DNA of 64,000 nucleotides. It comes from Crambe crambe. Its lineage: Eukaryota > Porifera > Demospongiae > Poecilosclerida > Crambeidae. Positions 186-63,777 of this stretch are shown here, piece after piece (positions within the stretch are counted from its first letter, which is position 1; the number at the start of each line of letters is the position of its first letter). The DNA lies in contig OZ004587.1 in NCBI GenBank assembly GCA_963924555.1, forward strand, positions 1,240,001 through 1,304,000. The letters run 5' to 3'. A model generated the notes under the pieces. It ran no database searches and was not told the origin of the DNA. It saw nothing but the letters and a program-made list of their open reading frames with translations. The translations under genes were made by a program, and so were the position numbers.

Positions 186-1230
186 ATAACTAGACTGGTA
201 CCTGTCATGTGACATATGGCATGCTAAATCAGTTTGATGTGTTATATACTCATAGTACACCCACTAGATAATTATGTTCATTTAGCCCTTTAACTGGATG
301 GCGAATCACTGCCGATCACCATGGTGCATGGCAATCACACTTGCAGCTCGAGCTGCACAAGCCACTCCTTCTTCTCCTGTTATGTTAAGACCACCAAAGA
401 ACTATAGGCTATGTAGGCAAGATTATTCCAGATTATTCCAGATTATTCAGTCTTGGAGTCACCTCAAAAATTATGTTGGCAAATCCTATTAAGATGTAGC
501 TAATTTTAGATAACAAGGAGATGTTGTATCATTCATTTTACTGTCCCATTAATTTATTATTCTTCTTATTTCTCTCAGCTAACATAAATTAAAAATTTGC
601 ATAAAACAAACCAGGGACGTTTTAACCAGGGTGAATGGTGAGAAGGCTAGAAACTAGAAGGGGCATAAGGAAGCTTGCCTACGAGAGAAGCCTGCAGTTG
701 CTGATCATGCTTGGAGTAATCATTATCCTATTTTATGGAAGGAAGCTTCAGTTGTAGATCAAGCTGGGACTAAGAAGGAGCAGCTTCTAAAAGAAGACTA
801 GAGCTTGGGTTACTACGCTTAAAGGTGTTTGTGCCTTCTGGTAATGCCATGCTATCAGCATGGTAACATAATATCCATAGGTGTATGCACTGTGTTTTCT
901 AGATAGCTATATAAGAACGTTTTTGTATCACCCTGAGATGTCGGTGGTTTATTTAAATTTAATTTTATAAAAAAATTAGCTATTTCATAACAAAAAAATA
1001 TAATACATGGAAATTCTGTTAGTATAAAATCTACAACATAATTGCATGACAACAACCACTGTGTTACATAATAATTATTGTTTACATAACTGTTGTGAAA
1101 TTCTGTTAGCATGAAATGTACAAAAAGCTACACCATAATTTCAAGATAATTCTAGTGACCAAATGAAAGTGTTGAGTGAGGGAAAGCACAAATGAGCACA
1201 AGATAATAGTGGTGGATGAGGAGGGAAGCG
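186..1230. other. Intergenic, no gene seen
   Basis: No supported coding exon. The part around 855-1230 is the 3' flank of the metallopeptidase/ankyrin gene. It resembles the 3' flank of the pseudogene copy at 12700-12987, including a shared 'TGTCGGTGGTTTATTT' stretch that belongs to the foldback MITE family. A weakly repeated 'GGAAGCTT' segment lies at 660-780. Confidence 0.5.
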
Positions 1231-4200
1231 TCATTGTTTAGTGAGTAAGTATTCCACCACCTCACTATGACCCTTCTCTAGGGCCAACTGGAGTGGTGTC
1301 TTGTTCAACTTGTTCTTGATGGTTGGGGGGGAACGAATGTATTCAATCAGATGCTTGATGACCGCAAGATGACCATTTTCTGCTGCCCAATGGAGCGGAG
1401 TCTCTCCATCCACATCTTTACAGATCGAGTTGCATACTTTGTTTTGGGTGAAGAATTTTATGATGGAGAGATGTCCATTGTTAGCTGCCATGTGAAGAGG
1501 TGTGACATTATTGTCATCCAGAGTGTTGAGGTCACAGCCATACTTCTCAACGAAGTTCATGACGAGGTGGAGGTGACCCTCTTGAGAAGCATTATGGAGT
1601 GGTCGTCTTCCTTGCCAACCGGGAACATCAGGACTGCAATGCATGACATTTATTAAATAGTCTACTACATCACTCTGTCCCATATGGGCTGCCTCGTGAA
1701 GTGGTGTGTTGTTATCATTGTCTGTACTGAGCGGATCACACTTTCTATCTTCACATAAATACTTCACAGTAAATAAGTGTCCGTTCTTTGCAGCGAGATG
1801 TAGGGGGGTGACTTGATCGTTGTCTCTACTGGCAGGGTCACAGCCATGCCTCTCAACCAAGTTCATGACGAGGTGGAGGTGACCCTCTTGAGAAGCATAA
1901 TGGAGTGGTCGTCTTCCAAACTGACCGGGAACATTAGGACTGCAATGCATGACATTTATTAAATAGTCTACTACATCACTCTGTCCTAAACCAGCTGCAT
2001 TGTGAAGTGGTGTGTTGTTATAATTGTTTGTACTGAGTGAATCACACTTTCTTTCTTCACATAAATACTTCACAGTAGATAAGTGTCCGTTCTTTGCAGC
2101 AAGATGTAGGGGGGTGGCTCGATTGGTATCTCTACTGGCAGGGTCACAGCCACACTCCATTATCAAGAACTTGACAATGGATAAATGACCCTTCTGGGCA
2201 GCCATAAAGAGAGGTCCTCTACCATACTTTTTATCAGGAAGGTTGGGATCACATCGACAGTCTTTGATCAGATACTTCACAATATCGATGTGCCCCTCCA
2301 TAGCTGCCATGTGGATGGGAGTGGTCTTGTATGAGGTGGAGTCTGAAAATATATCCTGAATGGACATGTACTGTAGCATCTTCTCCATCAAATACTTCAC
2401 GACTTCTAAATTTCCACCATGGCAGGCTCTATGTAGAGATGAGCAGCCTTCTTCATCCTGGTCGAGTGGATCCATTTGATGATTATCAACTAAATACTGG
2501 ACAATGGATAAACGCCCTGCTTCAGCTGCAGTGTGGAGAGGAGTAATTCCAAGCTGACCTGAAGGTGCAGGGTTGCATAGAGCTTTGTCGATTAGGTACT
2601 TGAGCACATCCAGTCGGCCATAGTCAGCTGCAGTGTGTAATACGGTGTCACCCTTCTTATTCTTGGTCAAGGGATTGAGCCCCTTTGTGATGAGACGCTT
2701 GACTTCTTCTAGGTTTCCTTCTTTGGCTGCATGGTGTAGTTCTTCATTGTGCTCTGTTGTAGTTTGTGCTGAGTCGATTATGTCCAGTCGTGGGTCATCT
2801 AAGTCTCTCTCGATGTTGTCCTGTAATGTGAGGGAAGGAAACTGTTAGATGAGTTGGCACTTGTTTACAAACAAGAATTAGGAGATTCAGGTTGGTTGTT
2901 CAAACCCTCTGGTTATTATGGGAAGATCCTTTGCGCTACCTTGGAACTAGAGGTAATACGATTTTATACCTCATGTGTGTGCCTGCATGTAGCATCAAAA
3001 CAAAATGATTTAAAGGCAAGAGTAGCTATACAATGTATGGCAGAGAGGCTAAGGGTGAGATTATGTGGGCACATCACCTAGTGACTGCATCCTATTCCAT
3101 TCAGCCCTTGTTCCAACTCTCTTTGACTAGTTATAACTACATCACCTTTATTAGAATAAACTATTTTATTTTTTCTTTACTTGTTTATAAATGCAATTTC
3201 TTCTTGCAGGAGGCCATTAGCCATTAGCTATAGCAATAACCATGCATCTCATTATAGCTGTTATTAATTAATTTTTGTGATTTCTTTTTGCAGGAGTAGC
3301 TGTATCAAGCTAGCTCTATAACTACAGCTTCTTTTTTTTTGCTGCTGCCCTTAATAGCTAATTCAAATCTGCATGTAACTTTGAGACAGTTACATGTCTT
3401 TATGTGGTTTTCAATGATTTCTTTTTTGTTTCGATAAGCAATTTCTTTTTGCAGGTGGCCATTAGCTAGCAATAACCTTCTCATTAAGATATAGCTGTCG
3501 TTCTGCCACAATTTTGTGATTTGCAGGAGGTAGTTTGTGCTGTATCTAGCTAGCTATGTAGAGCTGCTGCTGTTTTAAATCTGTAACTATGTCTTTATGT
3601 GGTTTTCAATGGTTTCCTTTTTTCCTTTATATTTTAAGCATTAGACTTTTATATAGCTCAACTCAATCTTGATTGATACATGTAGTTACAGGTTTCTATT
3701 AGTAGTACACTATAATGACTGTTGGCATTAATTTTTATTTGAATGAATGATGTAGCATTACCACATTCTGTGTTTGAAACCATGCACCTATATATATATA
3801 CTGTGCATGTACAGTGAGTTGATGTTTTAGTATAAAATAGTTAGACACCTCAATCAACAGGATCTATGGCATATAAAAACCCACAGGCCCTTAGTAGCAC
3901 CCTCTCTGTGCTAGGCTACCATATGCCCTGGCCCTTGGATTTCTATGTCTCAGAGTCTATAAGTAATACATGCTATACATAGTGAATTAAAAGTGTTAAA
4001 ATAGCATTGTTTGAAGCCAGAAATTTACGAGGATTCTCAGCACATAAGGTTATAGTTGTTAGAGGGGGGGAGGGGGGGAGCCAGTAACAACAGCTTCAAT
4101 GATGTCCATGCAGACAGTACTTTCCAGTGTTTAAATTGTGTCAATTAATTTTCTAACTCCAGAAAGGCTAGAGCTAGATTTGTAGGAAATTAATTAGCTC

Positions 4201-7200
4201 ACATGTCCATACAATGCACTATCTTATGTTTGTCAACCGTTATCTACTAACATGTTACCTCAACTTTAACTATACTTACTAGTGATGTGATGTTCAAACT
4301 AAAACAAATGAGTGGCTGTTCAATGCTTACTTGGAATTCTTCATCAGTGAGTTCAGTTCGGAATCCTACAGTAAAAGTGCTCTCAGTATCTGCTACATCA
4401 AGAACTGCCTCTGTCGTTCCCACGTCCAGTAGAGGGTTAATATCAACTTCATTGTCATTACATATCTCCTGGAGATTGGTCAAAGATACTGCTGGAGATA
4501 AGTCAGGGGAGGAAGGAGCTGGATAATTAAGGACAAAAGATATCAACCTTAGAATGGAACTTCAAAATTTTCTGACCTGAAAAGCTTGAGTCTGACGCAT
4601 TCTCATTGAATGAAGCTTCATCTGGAGTGAGGTCAAAAACCTGTTCACCATAGTGGATGCTACATACTCCAAGTTCACTCAATTCAAACTGCTGCCTTTT
4701 ATTGGCAATAACATTTCTGATATCTTCAATGCAGCAATTAAATATCATCCCTTCTTGTTCACAACGCAGGAGTCGCATTAGATTGCAACCGAATAGAACT
4801 TTCAATTTATTGTGTAGTTCAGCAAGTCCTTTGACTGTCAAATTGGTGACACTCTCCCTGAATTTCAACTTGCAGACTCTTCCAGCTTCCTCATCCACAG
4901 CACCAAATGCATCACTGGGACATTCACTAACGAATCTTGAGGAATACTCATGGAATTTTCTTATGAATCTTTTGAACTTCTTCTTGGCTGTGCTGCTACC
5001 GAGTGTGGTGGTTAGAAGGCGCATGATATCGCTATCGTAAAAGGACCAGAACTTGGATATTTGAGGTAAAACCTCTTCCATGGTCTTACAGTTGCATAGT
5101 ATCTGATTAATGTTCTGATCATGAAGTTTCAGAACTTTGACTATATCATCAAATGTGTGAGAAGCTTCGATTTCTTTGAATAGATCGAAGATAAGGTCTG
5201 CAAATCTTGCCTTGATTTTTGTAGTTTCTCTATCCAGTTGCAGCATAATTCTGCCAGCAGATAAAAAGGGGAAGTATGAAGATATATCATCTACACCCAG
5301 TTCTGCAACAAAGAATAGTATAGTTAAGACATTAGGATCAGCTTCGTAGTAGTGCTACAATCAGAAGCTTATAATTCTTATAGATGATGAGATGATGGCT
5401 TATTATAACCACAGGCTGTGTGGTTATGTTTAGGTAAGATATTTGTTTGTAATATCATTATTGTCACCCATGCACTGCAACATAGCCTTAACTTTTATCT
5501 CTGGAATTATAATGTGATAGTACTTGAGAAAAGGAGAAAAGGAGTCTTATCAAGCAAAATTTATTAAAAAGCTGTTAACTACTTGTAAAGTTTACAAGCT
5601 ACATATGAGATGTAAAATTCAATTAACAGGAACAAAAATTAATAGTGCATGAACTTGATTTAAAAACCATCAGACTAAGAGCTTTAGAATGATACAGATA
5701 ACTCCGTTTTGAATTTTTGCTCTATATGACATCTTTTCTATACTATCACAAATACTAATTTCATTCTAAAATCAAGACAGACACTTCAATAGCTAGCTAT
5801 CTCTCTTTACCTGAAACAGCAGAACTGATGGTTGATGCGGCAAAAGACTCAGCATACCAAGAATCAGATGCATCTAAAATGATCATTGAAGTCAGTTAGA
5901 ACAGTGAAGACTATCACGAGGTGATCTCACCTTCAATTCTTGCATGTGTATCTTGTTCACTCCTACAATACTGGAGAGCCAACCTCTTGGCCAGTCCCAC
6001 TTCACCAACATCAGGTGACTTCAGAGCAGAAACCACAGAATTCCAGTCCAACACGATTTTCTTTACATTGTTCTTCACCAAATAGTCAATAGCTGCCATT
6101 AGAGGATCATCCTTCTTCTTGAACTCCTTTAATTTTACATAAGGGATGCCCAATTGCTTGCCAATTGCAAACCACTTGTACTTAACAGTGCCCAACTCCT
6201 TGCACGTTGATGTAATCTTCCAAGTTATGTGGCCTGAAAATTTTAATAAAAATTTCGTGGATTTCTATGGTTCAACACACACAGAGTTTAATTTTTGCTT
6301 AAATACATAATTTTACCCCCCCCCCCCCCCCCCAAAAAAAAAAAAAAAAAAAAGATTTATAGCTTACTTGGAACAGGAGTTGCAATGTCAGTAATTGATG
6401 GTTCCAGTTTCTTATACTCTGAAAAAAGAATTGATTTTAGCAACATTATAACAGACTCTTTTGTACAAAGTGGTCGCTTAATTTTCCTAAATTCAACAAC
6501 ATTAAACTTGCTAGCTACCAGCAGCTATTAATTCACCTCTGTAGTATGCATCTGCTAAGGTCACCTTGTCCAACAAGGAAGGTTTATCAGAGACAAAGTT
6601 GATGTGTTTGTGGAATCCTTTCAAAACTTTGTACTCTTCTTCAGTAATTTTATCCTTCTCATAGGCAGCATCAACCTTTTCAGGAGTGTCGTATTTGTCA
6701 TCAACAAGCCATTCTGTATATGTTCTGCATGTATGGATGGATAAAGACTATTGCTTTAATTACGTAGAATGATAATAGAAGATACTAGGGAAATGTGCAA
6801 CACTTGACAGAGAGCAAGTAAGCAAGTATTCTTTATTGCTTCAACTCTTTAGAAGATTTTGATTTTCCAACCAGGAAGCTCCATACATAGAAACTGTAAA
6901 TGCTTACCACAAGCAAGTGCCTACAATTCACTTTGATAAGACGTAGCTCCTCTATGATAAAAGGCTGTATAAAACTATCTACATAGTTCAATTACAATTG
7001 CAGCATGTGACATGACCTGAGAGTCAGCTGACTCGCTGAATTACCTCAGTATTCAGCTAGCAATGGCTCTTCATATCTCCTTAAACAATCCGAATAATAG
7101 TATCAACATTTGCTCCATAGCTACATATCTTGTACTGAATTTGAGTTTTTCATGAATAGTACATGTCAACATCTTTGATTCGGATCAGAAAAGTATCCTT

Positions 7201-8349
7201 TGCAGGAGGTGATGAAATTCAGGGTAACCAGTGAATATTAATTTTAAAGCTTTAACATGTATGGATGTTACTTGATGCAATTTTGACACTTCAGAATTAG
7301 CTACCTGCGATAAGTACTGACTTACGGGTAGTGCATGACACTGTCTGGGTCATACTGGGAACTTGGGAAATTTTTTCCAGGATTGTTTTCTCCAACCCAC
7401 TGTTCCTGGAAGTTCACTATACTCCGACAACCAATTGTCTTCATCATCTTTCCCTCGCTCACAAACTTCCTCAGGATTTTCCAGTAGTCTGGACGCTGGT
7501 GCTCATGACCCAAGCCAAGTGCATGCCCGAATTCATGCACCACAGTTGCTCGTAAGTGGAAGTCATCTTTATCATCAAGATTGAGGACCATGGTGGGCTT
7601 GTCCTTACCCTCAGTCTGAGCTTCAGATCCCAACTTGGACCAACTTCCACCTCTTCCACCTGATAAAAAATTTATAGCAAATGCTCACTTTTTATTCCAC
7701 TAATGTTAAATACCACATACAGTTTGTAATGAACAAAATCAATTCAACAAATGAAAAAATCACATGTAGTGTAATCATGTTAACTCTACCTTTACAAATT
7801 TAGTAATTAACTTACTTTGAAATTTGACACGGACGTGTGAATCTTGAATGTTATGAGTGAGTTTGAAGATGGGAGTGTACTCACTGTTCCTCACATCATC
7901 CATACTCCAATTGGTCTTAGCTATTTCCATAATAATGTCACCAGTTATTGGCTGGTTCTTGTAAGTCCACTTGTTACGACTCTTCTCACTTTCATCGTCA
8001 TCAAAGAAGTACACCAGAATTTCACAATGGTCATCATCTGAGCTCTTCCACAATCGGCTCCTTGGCATCCATGCATTTTTACCATCACCACTAACCTACA
8101 TAGGAGAGTGATCTTTATTGTATAATTTCTTCTCCCACAGTCATGGTTACTAATAATGGCTCCAATTTGGAGCAAAAGACTCTGAATTGAAACTCAGTCA
8201 CTCAAAACTTAGCTAGCTAATATTCTGACCTCAGTTGCTCCTGCTTTCTTGTCACCTGTTCCATTTGTTTCACTAGCTGTGGCGAGTACTGAGTCAATAC
8301 ATTCACTTTTGCTGTTACTGTCATGATTCTTCTCTTGAAGAGTAGCCAT
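1231..8349 (-). CDS. Zinc metallopeptidase - Death-like - ankyrin fusion protein, 10 exons, ~1280 aa
   Basis: Exons on the minus strand: 8349-8230, 8095-7816, 7659-7326, 6724-6537, 6418-6368, 6233-5931, 5873-5811, 5302-4577, 4518-4331, 2820-1231. All have GT donors and AG acceptors, and phase is kept throughout (3843 nt). The first ATG has an in-frame stop just upstream and no signal peptide follows, so the protein is probably cytosolic. Residues ~45-310 are an astacin/MMP-like zinc peptidase: HEFGHALGLGH at ~175-185, then a SVMHYP Met-turn at ~240-245. The GGSWSKLG and fDPdSvMHYP context fits the MMP-like ZnMc subfamily better than secreted astacins. Residues ~340-420 are a Death-like fold (TGWF-type core, LDWNSVVSAL). 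Residues ~446-690 are an all-helical module containing KFWSFYDSDIM, familiar from sponge Death/ankyrin proteins but unnamed. Residues ~770-1275 hold 15 ankyrin repeats (TPLHLAAKNGH type). Likely a protease-coupled intracellular adaptor; function is inferred. Confidence 0.88.
2821..4330 (-). other. Large intron before the ankyrin exon
   Basis: This is intron 9 of the metallopeptidase/ankyrin gene. Acceptor TTACAG abuts exon 10 and donor GTAAGC follows exon 9. No coding exon is supported inside. It holds an imperfect internal duplication at 3195-3560 and a G-rich run near 4062-4078. Confidence 0.7.
3195..3560. repeat. Imperfect tandem duplication inside intron
   Basis: Two to three degenerate copies of a block. 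Each contains 'TTTCTTTTTGCAGG', then a GCCATTAGCTA stretch, then AGCTGT and TTTTGTGATTT segments. Each copy ends in a good polypyrimidine-AG, so they look like decoy 3' splice sites on the plus strand, with no exon following. Confidence 0.5.
6316..6353. repeat. Poly-C run joined to poly-A run
   Basis: About 17 C directly followed by about 20 A, in the intron between exons 5 and 6 of the metallopeptidase gene. A similar C-then-A structure recurs at 50731-50773. Confidence 0.9.
6725..7325 (-). other. Intron 3 of the metallopeptidase gene
   Basis: The sequence between the Met-turn exon and the end of the peptidase domain. No further exon or repeat was recognised. The donor is CCC|GTAAGT and the acceptor ATGCAG. 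Confidence 0.6.
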
Positions 8350-12987: not shown

Positions 12988-15900
12988 CTATTTAGTGAGT
13001 GGAGTTAGGTATTTCACCACCTCACTATGACCCTTCTCTAGGGCCAAATGGAGTGGTGTCTCGTTAGACTTGTTCTTGATAGTTAGGGGGCAATGGATAT
13101 GTTCAATAAGATGCTTGACAATTGCGAGTTGACCAAATAAAGCTGCAACATGGAGAGGAGTGTTTCCTTTGACATCTTGAAACATAAAACTGCGATCTTC
13201 ATTTTGGGTGAGGTATTGGACAATTGAAAGGTATCCTTTTATAGCTGCCATGTGAAGAGGTGTGACATTATTGTCATCCAGACTCTTGGGGTCACAGCCA
13301 TGCTTCTTAATAAGGATCTTCACGAGGTGGAGGTGACCCTCTTGAGAAGCATTATGGAGTGGTTGTCTTCCTAATTGACCGGGAACATTAGGACTACAAT
13401 GCATGACGTTTATTAGATAGTCGACTACATCACTTTATCCTTTACTGGCTGCATTGTGAAGTGGCGTGTTGTTATTATTGTCCGAACTGAGTGGATCACA
13501 CTTTCTCTCTTCACATAAATACTTCACAGTAGATAAGTGTCCGTTCTTTGCAGCAAGATGTAGGGGAGTGGTTTGATCTATATCTCTACTGGCAGGATCA
13601 CAACCACACTTTATTATTAAGAACTTGACAATGGATAAGTGACCCTCCTGGGCAGCCTGGAAGAGAGGTGCTCTACCTTGCACACCACCAGGAAGATTGG
13701 GATCACATCGGCATTCTTCGATGAGATACTTGACAATATTGATGTGCCCCTTCAGAGCTGCCACGTGAGTGGGGGTAGTCTTATGTGAGGTGGAGTCTGA
13801 AAATATGTCCCGAATGGACTTGTACCGTAGTATCTTCTTCATCAAATATTTCACAATTTCTAAATTTCCACCACCACAGGCTCTATGTAGAGATGAGTAG
13901 CCTTTTTCATCCAGATGGAGTGGATCCATTTGATGATTGTCCACTAAAATTAATACTCGACTGTCGAGAAATCCCCTGCTTCAGCTGCTCTGTGGAGAGG
14001 AGTAGTTCCATGCCAACCCGAAGATGCAGGGTTGCATTGAACATGATTGATTAGATATTTGAGCACCCCCAGTCTGCCATAGTCAGCTGCAACATGTAGT
14101 ACCGTATCACCTTTCCTATTCTTGGTTAAGGGATTGAGCCCCTTCGTGATGAGATGCTTGATTTCTTCTAGGTTCCCTTTTTTGGCTGCATGGTGTAGTT
14201 CTTCATTGTGCTCTGTTGTGGTTTGTGCTGAGTCTATTATATCCAGTCGTGGGTCGTCCAAGTCTCTCCTGATGTTATCCTGTGATATCCAATAGTAATT
14301 ATGTTCAGATCAAGTCTAGAACCAAAATGGATACACACACTGTCATTTGCTCCTTACCTTGGACTCATTAGAGATATCAGTCTCCAGTCCTGAGATACTT
14401 CCACCATATGTTGAACGAGTGGCCACACTTATTGCAGTCATGTCACTGATCGTACCAAATGCAGCATCATCACCAGTCTTCACTTGAAGGGTAACCATTG
14501 GTTTCTCCAGAGAGAGGGTAAGGGAGGGAGGATCTGGCCAGAGAGAGAGAGAGAAAACTTTATTTTCAACAGCTAGACATGGCAACTTCAAGAATTTCTA
14601 ATGTATTATCCTTTCTTTCTTTTCGCTGTGAAGCTGCCAACCCCTGATGGAAGTAAAATCCTGGACAGTTCACTAAATTCCCTAGTCTATGTAGCTGTAG
14701 GTTATCAAATGGATAAGAATAATTACGGTTGCTGTAGACTCAATACCAGTCACATGAAATAAGCAGCTTTGGAGTTATTTAGCTATTAGCTATAACCAAA
14801 ACTTTTTTTGGTGAATGTATACAATTTCAATAATAATAAGTTAGTATTATTCATAGCTGCCAACCATCCAGGATTGTCCAGGGATTTGGTTTTTGTCAGG
14901 AATTTCGCTCATTACAATTATATAGAGCCAGAGCTTATGGCCATAGCTACAATCTAGGGGATCGGAGGAATGCCCTCTGATTCAATCTCCATGGCATAAT
15001 CTAGGCAATGCCATGAGGTTTGTTCTCTAGTTGAAAAGTTATGCTGATCTATACTATGCTCCATCAAGCATGTCAGGAAAAAGCATGCACCTATTTTTCC
15101 AGCATAATTCTTGCTCAGAAGCACCTGGCTATTAATTTTATTTGCTGAACAGAGATGCATCATCATTAGAGAGATCTATAGAAAACCTTTAGCTACATGC
15201 ACTATTATTCTCAGTTATGATGGGGGCACCCCCTGAAACCAAGGTGCCCAGGTAAGTAAAGTTGTGTGATGGACATAGCTAGCTACATAGTTACCTGTCT
15301 GACCAGTCTCACAATACTTCTTCTCAATAGCCTTTGATAAAGAAGAGAATTTGATGAGTGGTGCCTTGAGAGCTGTGGCAAGGTTTTTCCATATACATGC
15401 AGAGCCTTGGCCCATCAACCAATCCAGAAGGACTTGATTGAAACACTCGGCTGGGTCATTGTTGAACTTGGTCCTAATGGCTTCAAGGGTGAAAGGGTCT
15501 AGTTCCAACTCCACTCCTAGGTGGTACCACTTAGTGTAGGCAGCCCAGATAAAGTTCCTCACTGCCTTCAGATCTTTAGCAACCAACAGAGCTACAATAG
15601 GAAAAGATCAGTTGCAATTCCTTCGATTATAATAGCCAGCAGTTATGAAGCTACACTTCATTTATGCCTGGTTAACTTACTTGTTGAGCTTGTGTTTGAC
15701 CCAGTTGGACAGTTGGAACCTGATGATCGTGCACCTATGAAAAATAGACACCATACAAGGGAAAGGACGATATTAATCATTATCAGTATGGTGGACCACA
15801 TGTAACTGCTATTATTGTTCTCAGTTACAGAGTTACAGGTAATGGGCACCCCCTGAAACCAAGCCAACCAGGTAAGAGAAGCTTGTAGTGCATCCTATCT

Positions 15901-16686
15901 GAGCTAGTTACCTGTTTGACTAGTCTCACAATACTTTCTCTCAATAGCCTCAGATAAAGAAGAGAATTTGATGAGTGGTGCCTTGAGACCTGTGGCAAGG
16001 TTTTTCCATGTACATGCAGAGCCTTGACCCATCAACCAATCCAATAGGACTTGATTGAAGCACTCGGCTGGGTCATTATTGAACTTGGTCCTAATGGCTT
16101 CAAGGTCTGAAGGATCTAATTCCAACTCCACTCCTAGGTGGTAGCTACCACTTAGTGTAGGCAGCCCAGATAAAGTTTCTTATTGCCTTCAGGTCCTTAG
16201 CAACCAACAGAGCTATAATTATACAACAGAAAAGATCACTCACTAAAGTATATAAACATTAATAATACAACTATAGTTACATAGCCAGTAGTCGTCAGTG
16301 GAGGAAATTGGAAGGCCCCAAGGGTGTAATGTAGATATTTTTAAGGCACCATAATGAAGTATGCTGATCATCAGATTCTGATGGGTATTAGCTAGCTGGC
16401 ATTCTCTGACTCATTACTGGCTGAGTAGCTGTTTATCAGAGCTGTATAGCACGTGCAGTATAGCTTCTATTAAAAAATTCCTTTTTAATCTATACGAAAT
16501 AAGCTATCTTTATAAAAAACAAGAAGCAGGACAGGGATAGCTACAATAATATTATAGATATCCTGTAGTTTAAAGTTTTATTTATTCTTGATGATAGTTG
16601 TGTGCATGCAATTATTCATGAATCCATTTTCATAATTTATTAGCTAGTTATAGTTATAGTAGCTTACTTTCTTGAGCAGGATTCAT
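12988..16686 (-). pseudogene. Death-Death-ankyrin paralogue, disabled
   Basis: Minus-strand exons: 16686-16668 (MNPAQE), 16212-15912 (Death-like 1), 15734-15681 (Ser/Thr linker), 15591-15295 (Death-like 2), 14533-14358, then the ankyrin exon from 14279. Splice sites and phases agree. Three lesions are visible. Death exon 1 carries a 4-nt insertion (301 vs 297 nt) near 16138-16145, creating a TAG. The ankyrin exon has a ~5-nt insertion near 13948 giving TAA and a frameshift. A CAG codon equivalent to the intact copy is TAA at about 13437. The ankyrin text is otherwise very close to 1231-2820 (e.g. DPRLDIIDSAQTTTEHNEEL). There is no metallopeptidase module. Possibly still transcribed, but not able to make the full protein. 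Confidence 0.82.
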
Positions 16687-17440: not shown

Positions 17441-20400
17441 GACTACTGTAAATTTGGGGAAATCACACTATACTAGCACTGAAGCACTCTCTGTACTGCA
17501 TGTAATTAGAATTGACACTCTGTGAAGGTTAGAATCATATTGAGAAGAACCAAACGAAAAAAGAAAAGGATGGGGCTCTATTGCGGGCACCAGAGTGCTC
17601 TAATTAGAGAGATCACACTATACCAGCACTAAGACACTCTTGAGAGTCTTTGTACTGCATGTAATTAGAGTTGATGCTCTGTGATAGAATCAAATTAGAA
17701 TCACAGAGAAGAAAAAGAGAAGGACCGGGCTCTATTGCGGGCACCAGACTGCTCTAATTAGAGAGATCACACTATACCAGCACTAAGACACTCTTGAGAG
17801 TCTCTGTACTGCATGTAATTAGAGTTGACACCCTGTGATGGAATCAAATTAGAATCACAGAGAAGGACCGGATGAAAAAGAGAAGGACCGGGTTCTATTG
17901 CGGACACCAGACTGCTCTAATTAAAGAAACCACACTATACCAGCACTAAGACACTCTTGAGAGTCTCTGTACTGCATGTAATTAGAGTTGATGCTCTGTG
18001 ACAGAATCAAATTAGAATCACAGAGAAGGACCGGATGAAAAAGAGAAGGACCGGGCTCTATTGCGGGCACCAGACTGTTCTAATTAGAGAGATCACACTA
18101 TACCAGCACTAAGACACTCTTGAGAGTCTCTGTACTGCATGTAATTAGAGTTGACATCCTGTGATGGAATCAAATTAGAATCACAGAGAAGGACCGGATG
18201 AAAAGGAGAAGGACCGGGCTCTATTGCGGGCACCAGACTGCTCTAATTAAAGAAACCACACTATACCAGCACTAAGACACTCTTGAGAGTCTCTGTACTG
18301 CATGTAATCAGAGTTGATGCTCTGTGACAGAATCAAATTAGAATCTCAGAGAAGGACCGGATGAAAAAGAGAAGGACCGGGCTCTATTGCAGGCACCAGA
18401 CTGTTCTAATTAGAGAGATCACACTATACCAGCACTAAGACACTCTTGAGAGTCTCTGTACTGCATGTAATTAGAGTTGACATCCTGTGATGGAATCGAA
18501 TTAGAATCACAGAGAAGGACCGGATGAAAAAGAGAAGGACCGGGCTCTATTGCGGGCACCAGACTGCTCTAATTAAAGAGAACACACTATACCAGCACTA
18601 AGACACTCTTGAGAGTCTCTGTACTGCATGTAATTAGAGTTGACATCCTGTGACGGAATCAAATTAGGATCACAGAGAAGGACCGGGCTCTATTGCGGGC
18701 ACCAGACTGCTCTAATTAGAGAGACCACACTATACCAGCACTAAGACACTCTTGAGAGTCTCTGTACTGCATGTAATTAGAGTTGATGCTCTGTGATAGA
18801 ATCAAATTAGAATCACAGAGAAGGACCGGATGAAAAAGAGAAGGACCGGGTTCTATTGCGGGCACCAGACTGCTCTAATTAAAGAAACCACACTATACCA
18901 GCACTAAGACACTCTTGAGAGTCTCTGTACTGCATGTAATTAGGTGACAGAATCAAATTAGAATCACAGAGAAGGACCGGATGAAAAAGAGAAGGACCGG
19001 GCTCTATTGCGGGCACCAGACTGCTCTAATTAGAGAGATCACACTATACCAGCACTAAGACACTCTTGAGAGTCTCTGTACTGCATGTAATTAGAGTTGA
19101 CACCCTGTGATGGAATCAAATTAGAATCACAGAGAAGGACCGGGTTCTATTTCGGGCACCAGACTGCTCTAATTAAAGAAACCACACTATACCAGCACTA
19201 AGACACTCTTGAGAGTCTCTGTACTGCATGTAATTAGAGTTGACACCCTGTGACGGAATCAAATTAGGATCACAGAGAAGGACCGGATAAAAGGAGAAGG
19301 ACTGGGCTCTATTGTGGGCACCAGACTGCTCTAATTAAAGAAACCACACTATACCAGCACTAAGACACTCTTGAGAGTCTCTGTACTGCATGTAATTAGA
19401 GTTGACACCCTGTGACGGAATCAAATTAGGATCACAGAGAAGGACTGGATAAAAGGAGAAGGACCGGATAAAAAGAGAAGGACCGGGCTCTATTGCGGGC
19501 ACCAGACTGCTCTAATTAGAGAGATCACACTATACCAGCACTAAGACACTCTTGAGAGTCTCTGTACTGCATGTAATTAGAGTTGACACCCTGTGATGGA
19601 ATCACATTAGGATCACAGAGAAGGACCGGATAAAAGGAGAAGGACCGGATAAAAAGAGAAGGACCAGGCTCTATTGCGGGCACCAGACTGCTCTAATTAG
19701 AGAGATCACACTATACCAGCACTAAGACACTCTTGAGAGTCTCTGTACTGCATGTAATTAGAGTTGACACCCTGTGATGGAATCACATTAGGATCACAGA
19801 GAAGGACCGGATAAAAGGAGAAGGACCGGATAAAAAGAGAAGGACCAGGCTCTATTGCGGGCACCAGACTGCTCTAATTAGAGAGATCACACTATACCAG
19901 CACTAAGACACTCTTGAGAGTCTCTGTACTGCATGTAATTAGAGTTGACACCCTGTGATTGAATCAAATTAGAATCACAGAGAAGGACCGGATGAAAAAG
20001 AGAAGGACCGGGTTCTATTTCGGGCACCAGACTGCTCTAATTAAAGAAACCACACTATACCAGCACTAAGACACTCTTGAGAGTCTCTGTACTGCATGTA
20101 ATTAGAGTTGATGCTCTGTGACAGAATCAAATTAGAATCACAGAGAAGGACCGGATAAAAGGAGAAGGACCGGGCTCTATTGCGGGCACCAGACTGCTTT
20201 AATTAGAGAGACCGCACTATACCAGCACTAAGACACTCTTGAGAATCTCTGTACTGCATGTAATTAGAGTTGACACCCTGTGATGGAATCACATTAGGAT
20301 CACAGAGAAGGACCGGATGAAAAAGAGATGGACCAGGCTCTATTGCTCTAATTTGAGAGACCATACTATACCGAGACACTCTTGAGAGTCTCTGTACTGC

Positions 20401-28540: not shown

Positions 28541-31500
28541 TAAGTGTGGTCTCTCTGATTAGAGCAGTCTGGTGCCCACGATAAAGCCCGGTCTTTCTCT
28601 TCTTATCCGGTCCTTCTCTGTGATCCTAATTTGATTCTGTCATAGAGCATCAACTCTAATTACATGCAGTACAGAGACTCTCAAGAGTGTCTTAGTGCTG
28701 GTATAGTGCGGTTTCTCTGATTAGAGCAGCCTGGTGCCCGCAATAGAGCCCGGTCCTTCTCTTTTTCATCCGGTCCTTCTCTGTGATTCTAATTTGATTC
28801 TGTCATAGAGCATCAACTCTAATTACATGCAGTACAGAGACTCTCAAGAGTGTCTTAGTGCTGGTATAGTGCGGTTTCTCTGATTAGAGCAGTCTGGTGC
28901 CCGCAATAGAGCCCGGTCCTTCTCTTTTTCATCCGGTCCTTCTCTGTGATTCTAATTTGATTCTGTTACAGAGCATCAACTCTAATTACATGCAGTACAG
29001 AGACTCTCAAGAGTGTCTTAGTGCTGGTATAGTGTGGTCTCTCTAATTAGAGCAGTCTGGTGCCCGCAATAGAGCCCGGTCCTTCTCCTTTTATCCGGTC
29101 CTTTTCTGTGATCCTAATTTGATTCCGTCACAGGATGTCAACTCTAATTACATGCAGTACAGAGACTCTCAAGAGTGTCTTAGTGCTGGTATAGTGTGTT
29201 CTCTTTAATTAGAGCAGTCTGGTGCCCACAATAGAGCCCGGTCCTTCTCTTTTTCATCCGGTCCTTCTCTGTGATCCTAATGTGATTCCATCACAGGGTG
29301 TCAACTCTAATTACATGCAGTACAGAGATTCTCAAGAGTGTCTTAGTGCTGGTATAGTGCGGTGTCTCTAATTAGAGCAGTCTGGTGCCCGCAATAGAGC
29401 CCAGTCCTTCTCTTTTTCATCCGGTCCTTCTCTGTGATTCTAATTTGATTCTGTTACAGAGCATCAACTCTAATTACATGCAGTACAGAGACTCTCAAGA
29501 GTGTCTTAGTGCTGGTATAGTGTGGTCTCTCTAATTAGAGCAGTCTGGTGCCCGCAATAGAGCCCGGTCCTTCTCCTTTTATCCGGTCCTTCTCCTTTTA
29601 TCCGGTCCTTCTCTGTGATCCTAATTTGATTCCGTCACAGGATGTCAACTCTAATTACATGCAGTACAGAGACTCTCAAGAGTGTCTTAGTGCTGGTATA
29701 GTGTGTTCTCTTTAATTAGAGCAGTCTGGTGCCCACAATAGAGCCCGGTCCTTCTCTTTTTCATCCGGTCCTTCTTTGTGATCCTAATGTGATTCCATCA
29801 CAGGGTGTCAACTCTAATTACATGCAGTACAGAGATTCTCAAGAGTGTCTTAGTGCTGGTATAGTGCGGTGTCTCTAATTAGAGCAGTCTGGTGCCCGCA
29901 ATAGAGCCCAGTCCTTCTCCTTTTATCCGGTCCTTCTCTGTGATCCTAATTTGATTCCGTCACAGGGTGTCAACTCTAATTACATGCAGTACAGAGACTC
30001 TCAAGAGTGTCTTAGTGCTGGTATAGTGTGGTCTCTCTAATTAGAGCAGTCTGGTGCCCGCAATAGAGCCCAGTCCTTCTCCTTTTATCCGGTCCTTCTC
30101 TGTGATCCTAATTTGATTCCGTCACAGGATGTCAACTCTAATTACATGCAGTACAGAGACTCTCAAGAGTGTCTTAGTGCTGGTATAGTGTGTTCTCTTT
30201 AATTAGAGCAGTCTGGTGCCCGCAATAGAGCCCGGTCCTTCTCCTTTTATCCGGTCCTTCTCTGTGATCCTAATATGATTCTGTCACAGGGTGTCAACTT
30301 TATTACATGCAGTATAGAGACTCTCAAGAGTGTCTTAGTGCTAGTATAGTGCGGTCTCTCTAATTAGAGCAGTCTGGTACCCGCAATAGAGCCCGGTCCT
30401 TCTCTTTTTCATCCGGTCCTTCTCTGAGATTCTAATTTGATTCTGTCACAGAGCATCAACTCTGATTACATGCAGTACAGAGACTCTCAAGAGTGTCTTA
30501 GTGCTGGTATAGTGTGGTTTCTTTAATTAGAGCAGTCTGGTGCCCGTAATAGAGCCCGGTCCTTCTCTTTTTCATCCGGTCCTTCTCTGTGATTCTAATT
30601 TGATTCCATCACAGGATGTCAACTCTAATTACATGCAGTACAGAGACTCTCAAGAGTGTCTTAGTGCTGGTATAGTGCGGTTTCTCTGATTAGAGCAGTC
30701 TGGTGCCCGCAATAGAGCCCGGTCCTTCTCTTTTTCATCCGGTCCTTCTCTGAGATTCTAATTTGATTCTGTCACAGAGCATCAACTCTGATTACATGCA
30801 GTACAGAGACTCTCAAGAGTGTCTTAGTGCTGGTATAGTGTGGTTTCTTTAATTAGAGCAGTCTGGTGCCCGCAATAGAGCCCGGTCCTTCTCCTTTTCA
30901 TCCGGTCCTTCTCTGTGATTCTAATTTGATTCCATCACAGGATGTCAACTCTAATTACATGCAGTACAGAGACTCTCAAGAGTGTCTTAGTGCTGGTATA
31001 GTGTGATCTCTCTAATTAGAACAGTCTGGTGCCCGCAATAGAGCCCGGTCCTTCTCTTTTTCATCCGGTCCTTCTCTGTGATTCTAATTTGATTCTGTCA
31101 CAGAGCATCAACTCTAATTACATGCAGTACAGAGACTCTCAAGAGTGTCTTAGTGCTGGTATAGTGTGGTTTCTTTAATTAGAGCAGTCTGGTGCCCGCA
31201 ATAGAACCCGGTCCTTCTCTTTTTCATCCGGTCCTTCTCTGTGATTCTAATTTGATTCCATCACAGGGTGTCAACTCTAATTACATGCAGTACAGAGACT
31301 CTCAAGAGTGTCTTAGTGCTGGTATAGTGTGATCTCTCTAATTAGAGCAGTCTGGTGCCCGCAATAGAGCCCGGTCCTTCTCTTTTTCTTCTCTGTGATT
31401 CTAATTTGATTCTATCACAGAGCATCAACTCTAATTACATGCAGTACAAAGACTCTCAAGAGTGTCTTAGTGCTGGTATAGTGTGATCTCTCTAATTAGA

Positions 31501-31630
31501 GCACTCTGGTGCCCGCAATAGAGCCCCATCCTTTTCTTTTTTCGTTTGGTTCTTCTCAATATGATTCTAACCTTCACAGAGTGTCAATTCTAATTACATG
31601 CAGTACAGAGAATGCTTCAGTGCTAGTATA
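28541..31630 (-). repeat. Right sub-terminal array, ~18 units of ~163 bp, inverted
   Basis: The same unit as 17440-20485 on the opposite strand. Recognisable by CTCTCAAGAGTGTCTTAGTG, GGTCCTTCTCT and AGAGCAGTCTGGTGCCCGC. Variants of the block between CATCAACTC and GTCAACTC alternate along the array. Confidence 0.92.

Positions 31631-52042: not shown

Positions 52043-63777
<11,735 letters not shown>

Follow-up and report, generated by a model that had tools for sequence, protein, structure and literature searches.

A predicted sponge gene joining an astacin-like zinc peptidase to a Death-like domain, a TRADD-N-like module and ankyrin repeats

Introduction

The gene described here lies on the minus strand of a 64,000-nucleotide stretch of the genome of the demosponge Crambe crambe (GenBank assembly GCA_963924555.1, contig OZ004587.1, positions 1,240,001 to 1,304,000), which is called the window below and whose own numbering is used throughout. 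Running from 8349 to 1231, it first encodes an astacin-like zinc peptidase, followed by a Death-like domain and a module of two parts; an acidic linker then leads to 15 ankyrin repeats. We read it as one gene whose product belongs to the sponge Death/TRADD-N/ankyrin family and would act inside the cell as a signalling protease assembled through its Death fold, and we put the probability of this reading at roughly one half. The fusion of peptidase and Death-like domain appears well supported because a second protein, P0001, repeats the join in one frame with nearly equal spacing. New here is a predicted N-terminal myroilysin-like metzincin that has an intact catalytic motif and lacks a detectable signal peptide.

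Gene model

The original prediction of ten exons in phase was borne out: all nine introns are of the GT-AG type, the frame is kept throughout and the product comprises 1280 amino acids. Its start covers residues 1-40, the metzincin about 41-308, the Death-like domain 325-426 and the helical plus TRADD-N-like part 447-689. The exons and the candidate end signals are as follows.

8230..8349, minus strand: exon 1, residues 1-40, start without a hydrophobic stretch; the least certain exon
7816..8095, minus strand: exon 2, N-terminal portion of the peptidase
7326..7659, minus strand: exon 3, zinc motif HEFGHALGLGHE and Met-turn SVMHY
6537..6724, minus strand: exon 4, C-terminal portion of the peptidase, collinear with the P0001 sequence
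6368..6418, minus strand: exon 5, linker of 17 residues, phase 1-1
5931..6233, minus strand: exon 6, Death-like domain, phase 1-1
5811..5873, minus strand: exon 7, linker, phase 1-1
4577..5302, minus strand: exon 8, helical domain followed by the TRADD-N-like (RRM-like) domain, phase 1-1
4331..4518, minus strand: exon 9, acidic linker
1231..2820, minus strand: exon 10, the 15 ankyrin repeats and the stop codon, with a 306-bp internal duplication at 1530-2152
948..963, minus strand: candidate polyadenylation signals, ATTAAA from 963 and AATAAA from 953

Direct reading of the sequence finds an in-frame TAG immediately 5' of the ATG of exon 1. For the modelled start the predicted lack of a signal peptide holds, the best 19-residue mean hydropathy within the first 60 residues being -0.22; the highest such mean of the whole protein, 1.07, falls inside the ankyrin part. 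The candidate AATAAA is found 278 bases 3' of the stop codon and the ATTAAA about 270.

The peptidase–Death join

P0001 is a protein of 419 amino acids on a separate public contig of 3122 bases, with peptidase and Death-like domain in one open frame. Its peptidase is 40% identical to that of the gene over 197 columns with 2 gaps, an alignment that extends through exon 4; the linker to the Death-like domain measures 39 residues in P0001 versus 37 in the gene. From HExxH to the Death core there are 168 and 167 residues, respectively, and MAFFT aligns both cores in the same columns, in keeping with the earlier claim that the peptidase is fused to a Death-like domain. The protein itself is absent from the sponge genome, where its best peptidase match is the gene (46%; 100 of 205 candidates scored); this and the other genome searches covered the 143-Mb assembly with its 119 contigs. 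Of the 100 matches to P0001 listed in this genome 98 are due to its C-terminal part (best E 6e-14). Both P0001-type genome places that were tested match Pfam Death below the cut-off (E 0.005), and a profile of five such places together with P0001 finds Fas (3), TRADD (4) and THOC1 (1) as all eight of its matches in the PDB (E 0.004-1). The predicted structure of P0001 is usable in its peptidase part and of low confidence, hence unusable, in its Death part. A search of viral contigs gave one pattern match and no relative of P0001, and PADLOC gave none for it.

Exons 5, 6, 7 and 8 are all of phase 1-1. In five paralogues whose flanks were inspected by eye the Death exon likewise begins at a phase-1 acceptor, and therefore this exon normally needs an upstream partner; five module paralogues inspected in the same way have phase-1 acceptors as well. 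Among the 15 peptidase relatives with a recognised Met-turn six stop one residue after it, at the intron 3 site of the gene. This suggests that they are eukaryotic exons with a shared intron, a site through which P0001 runs without interruption.

The same region permits a reading as two adjacent genes: the first, for the peptidase, would end in intron 4, inside which the second, for the Death/TRADD-N/ankyrin part, would start. Reading through exon 4 reaches a stop at 6511 (open reading frame 6511-6747), an ATG at 6446 is in frame through exon 5, and AATAAA/ATTAAA strings are present in intron 3 (6837, 6760), with ATTAAA in intron 5 (6292, 6247). However, only about 65 bases would remain between the two genes, intron 4 itself contains neither AATAAA nor ATTAAA, exon 5 keeps its phase on both sides, and P0001 has both domains in one frame at near-equal spacing. 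Two genes are thus very improbable.

Neighbourhood comparisons set 60 astacin places against 113 of the 117 module matches and all 33 Death-copy matches; 57 of the astacin places came from the 85 Astacin matches after same-locus pieces had been dropped by hand, and 3 from the peptidase search. An astacin and a Death or module exon no more than 20 kb apart on one strand were found only in the gene and in a decayed copy on contig C10, the nearest module of which is 9.7 kb away and may belong to another gene. A further comparison by eye of astacins with 150 Pfam Death places (150 of 965 candidates scored) and the P0001 matches (100 of 205) may have missed a neighbour.

The peptidase domain

The catalytic set is complete, consisting of the HExxHxxGxxHE zinc motif (HEFGHALGLGHE, residues 175-186) and the SxMHY Met-turn (SVMHY from residue 240), with the catalytic glutamate at residue 176. 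The match to Pfam Astacin (PF01400; E 5e-8, 33.3 bits versus a curated cut-off of 22.5) is modest though above the cut-off. The HExxHxxGxxH zinc peptidase of the original prediction is therewith confirmed. By sequence the nearest solved structure is bacterial myroilysin (E 2e-9), with tolloid-like 1 behind it (8e-4), and the fold match of the predicted P0001 peptidase agrees; among solved structures the domain thus appears nearer to bacterial myroilysin than to animal astacins. Two NCBIfam models matched far below their cut-offs, AbsR1 at E 3e-12 and a model of an intracellular bacterial effector metalloprotease at E 4e-6. In a peptidase tree of 28 rows (the gene, 17 of 19 protein relatives, 3 relatives from its own genome and 7 of 80 other loci) the gene clusters with 11 of these protein relatives and the relative on contig C1, and the bacterial rows stand outside this group (90/96, drawn open); only 4 of 25 inner branches are starred, and the bootstrap had not settled. 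PMC9848320 argues for transfer from animal to bacterium, which counts against a guessed bacterial origin of the peptidase. Exon 3 searched as DNA gave no phage match, nor did residues 1-750 of the product give a match in a protein search.

Signal peptide and pro-segment belong to the core architecture of animal astacins (PMC9848320). The gene model, with exon 1 as drawn, shows neither a hydrophobic N-terminus nor a recognisable pro-segment, and it is therefore labelled astacin-like and not a secreted astacin. No FxGDI motif was seen by eye; ITGDI at residue 90 is aligned to the place where a predicted helix begins in the catalytic domain of P0001. Cys17 and Cys64 stand N-terminal to the catalytic site, and that they could form a myroilysin-like cysteine switch is only a guess by analogy.

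The genome contains 85 Astacin matches, the gene included. With the peptidase as query only four places besides the gene were found, namely C10:4088 (three pieces) and one each on C3, C1 and C18. The first of these is the decayed paralogue C10:4088172-4089310, which retains exons 2-3, interrupted by frame breaks and 85% identical in nucleotides; its exon 2 remnant (C10:4088169-4088470, 85% identical) extends beyond the donor site. Lying on the margin of a module gene cluster, this copy runs from the peptidase exons directly into an ankyrin remnant, so that peptidase and ankyrin parts have probably travelled together once before, which concerns their linkage and not their splicing. Between the peptidase exons and the decayed copy the ratio of nonsynonymous to synonymous substitution (dN/dS) is 0.22 over 113 codons, the last few exon 3 codons entering the frame break of the decayed copy and inflating dN. 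Differences are mostly silent, and therefore the peptidase has been under purifying selection.

Two alternatives can be judged from these data. The gene might be a non-functional or nearly dead hybrid, the product of duplication in an unstable cluster, as the decay of the related C10 copy and the frame breaks of a neighbouring ankyrin copy could indicate; yet ten of ten exons are open and the dN/dS value speaks of constraint, so that this is hardly credible. Alternatively, the fused protein could be an intracellular adaptor in which the peptidase serves as constitutive processing enzyme or binding domain and not as regulated effector. Such a role would agree with the lack of a recognisable animal-type pro-segment but less with the intact zinc and Met-turn motifs of a domain under purifying selection, and we regard it as unlikely.

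Another divergent astacin-like gene was observed on contig C1 (L015:4639-7137, plus strand). An open frame downstream of it has a lysine-rich CaaX-like tail at its end; if the putative exon linkage holds, this would be compatible with an intracellular peptidase tethered to a membrane.

The Death-like domain

Exon 6 very probably encodes a Death-like domain, a conclusion drawn from profile comparisons. Exon 6 itself gives no match to Pfam Death; three of the 16 aligned members of its family do (best E 6e-4). The family profile matches the P0001-type Death profile with a probability of 92% over 38 columns, as compared with 0.2% for the P0001-type Death profile against the module profile. In the PDB the family finds FADD in 6 of 15 matches (E 0.3-0.5); the other 9 are unrelated, and two engineered proteins rank first. 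The Death-like fold proposed by the original prediction is thus supported at the level of the family, while a direct assignment of the exon by Pfam is not obtained.

The helical and TRADD-N-like module

The original prediction spoke of an all-helical module. This was not upheld and had to be rejected, since only the first half is helical: residues 142-224 of exon 8 are predicted to form strands and helices in RRM-like order, and the predicted structure shows the beta-alpha-beta-beta-alpha-beta succession of the TRADD-N superfamily. This second half is probably a TRADD-N domain. Four of 27 module members match Pfam TRADD-like_N (PF20694) at E up to 1 (best 0.004), and a paralogue within the family (C17:4462802-4463506) reaches 27.4 bits, the one place of the genome above the cut-off. 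The copy in the window has no TRADD-like_N match. A place below the cut-off (C8:662067) lies outside the list of module matches, and one control genome also matched below the cut-off. Six single relatives of the module compared with Pfam gave TRADD-like_N once (E 0.45), and a genome search with PF09034 yielded three weak matches on C6, none at module places.

A Gly-Cys turn between strands 2 and 3 is found in 22 of 27 aligned module sequences. PMC8195603 describes the Gly-Ser (or Cys) turn of TRADD-N as strongly conserved and does not call it invariant. The gene's own copy has no such turn, and therefore we use the label TRADD-N-like. Foldseek with the predicted module gave no match at E 0.001, TRADD being absent from the 50 matches listed and from a second comparison. 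Searches of PDB sequences with module profiles gave none with the first profile and four unrelated matches with the second (E 0.11-0.71), and PADLOC returned one weak match for the module (E 0.007, no stretch passing).

The module family comprises 117 matches in the genome, the gene included. In 7 of 10 fetched loci (L043-L049) the module has ankyrin exons on its own strand no more than 1.5 kb further 3'; they were not seen within this distance in L041, L042 or the gene's own locus L040, where the flank stops before exon 10. The gene thus shows the features of the sponge Death/TRADD-N/ankyrin expansion, a module with homologues in many copies followed by ankyrin repeats.

Ankyrin array and neighbourhood

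A motif count gives 15 ankyrin repeats, the number expected from the original prediction. Within exon 10 a direct duplication of 306 bp (1530-2152, 90% matches) corresponds to 102 residues, that is three repeats of 34 residues, and is a recent growth of the recognition array. A tandem neighbour on the same strand (12988-16179) contains an ankyrin exon 82-86% identical to exon 10 with two frame breaks, and upstream of it two Death-type exons (15218-15607 and 15907-16179). The internal duplication and the tandem copy fit a fast-changing recognition part. Besides the gene itself, the window contains no further peptidase match. Two tandem-repeat arrays of 163/326 bp in opposite orientation (17488-20346 and 28543-31611) and a run of 200 N (56198-56397) were also observed in the window.

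Proposed mechanism

Death folds build helical complexes, and it is proximity that activates initiator caspases. By analogy with such Death-fold/caspase systems the ankyrin repeats would bind a target or a danger signal, several copies or partners would be gathered through the helical/TRADD-N-like and Death-like domains, and the N-terminal metzincin would act as the effector that cuts a nearby substrate, as a caspase does when activated by induced proximity. The product may act, as the original prediction had it, as a cytosolic sensor or executioner; for the gene as a whole we infer a single transcript, an intracellular place, assembly, activation and an immune or cell-death role.

Several observations weigh against one gene for an intracellular, Death-fold-assembled protease. 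The ATG at 6446 and the in-frame stop in intron 4 permit two genes, and the genome searches gave no other intact copy of the complete architecture. The missing Pfam Death match of exon 6 is accompanied by an extended paralogue (L023) that matches no Pfam family, and the gene's own TRADD-N half has Glu-Gly-Met in place of the conserved turn. Its Death exon is not among the 100 matches listed with P0001, and therefore its Death part and that of P0001 represent different subtypes. Moreover, the called N-terminus of P0001 is hydrophobic (mean 1.75). P0001 may be secreted, or its start may be miscalled; unless the latter is the case, this would speak against a cytosolic place.

The last point bears on the further alternative that the fused protein is secreted or directed to a membrane by a different first exon, the Death part being a remnant of exon shuffling. 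Of all exons, exon 1 has the least support, and typical astacins have a signal peptide (PMC9848320). Secretion would, however, place every assembly domain of a Death/TRADD-N/ankyrin protein outside the cell, and the modelled N-terminus has no hydrophobic stretch, the hydropathy maximum of the protein lying in the ankyrin part. We consider this alternative improbable and retain an intracellular signalling protease as the preferred reading.

Relation to known systems

Caspases with Death-fold prodomains, MALT1 and PIDD1 also combine a peptidase with a Death-fold assembly domain; they differ from the gene in having cysteine or self-cleaving folds instead of a zinc metzincin. With the astacin family M12A, of which myroilysin is the nearest solved member, the gene shares HExxHxxGxxHE, SxMHY, the Pfam Astacin match and the best PDB match. 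It differs in that its model lacks a signal peptide or recognisable pro-segment and is fused to signalling domains which elsewhere are intracellular.

With its helical plus TRADD-N-like module the protein falls into the Death/TRADD-N/ankyrin family already described in PMC8195603. There, NCOA6-type TRADD-N proteins are expanded in Amphimedon, with 357 reported (Kaur et al. 2021); they resemble the gene in having one to three Death-like domains followed by TRADD-N and, often, by ankyrin repeats, and their variable C-terminus holds possible enzymatic effectors (caspase, PNPase, HD). In contrast, the metallopeptidase of the gene is N-terminal and precedes the Death-like domain. In bacterial conflict systems Death-like or adaptor domains are coupled to peptidase effectors, rarely a metallopeptidase, and some systems hold inactive zincin-like domains (Kaur et al. 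2020, 2021; PMC7159879, PMC8195603). These systems differ in being multi-gene and mostly trypsin- or caspase-like. No description of a metallopeptidase–Death domain fusion in an animal was found in the literature as far as it was accessible, bioRxiv, most subscription journals and the source data of PMC8195603 lying outside the search; within this scope the combination is, as the original prediction had supposed, not known to have been described.

Implications

In animals Death-fold assemblies switch on caspases and kinases. If our reading is true, a zinc metallopeptidase on the Death-fold assembly code widens the known set of effectors and represents an unusual animal route to a protein-cutting switch of cell defence. 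More tentatively, the gene could belong to a non-caspase proteolytic Death-fold branch of early animals, in which an intracellular metzincin, possibly bacterial, was put by phase-1 exon shuffling before a Death/TRADD-N/ankyrin sensor, was switched by assembly and was kept in more than one species. The gene would allow the question whether an intracellular metzincin can be controlled by Death-fold proximity to be tested on one gene alone, and it shows how the large Death/TRADD-N repertoire of sponges acquires new enzymes.

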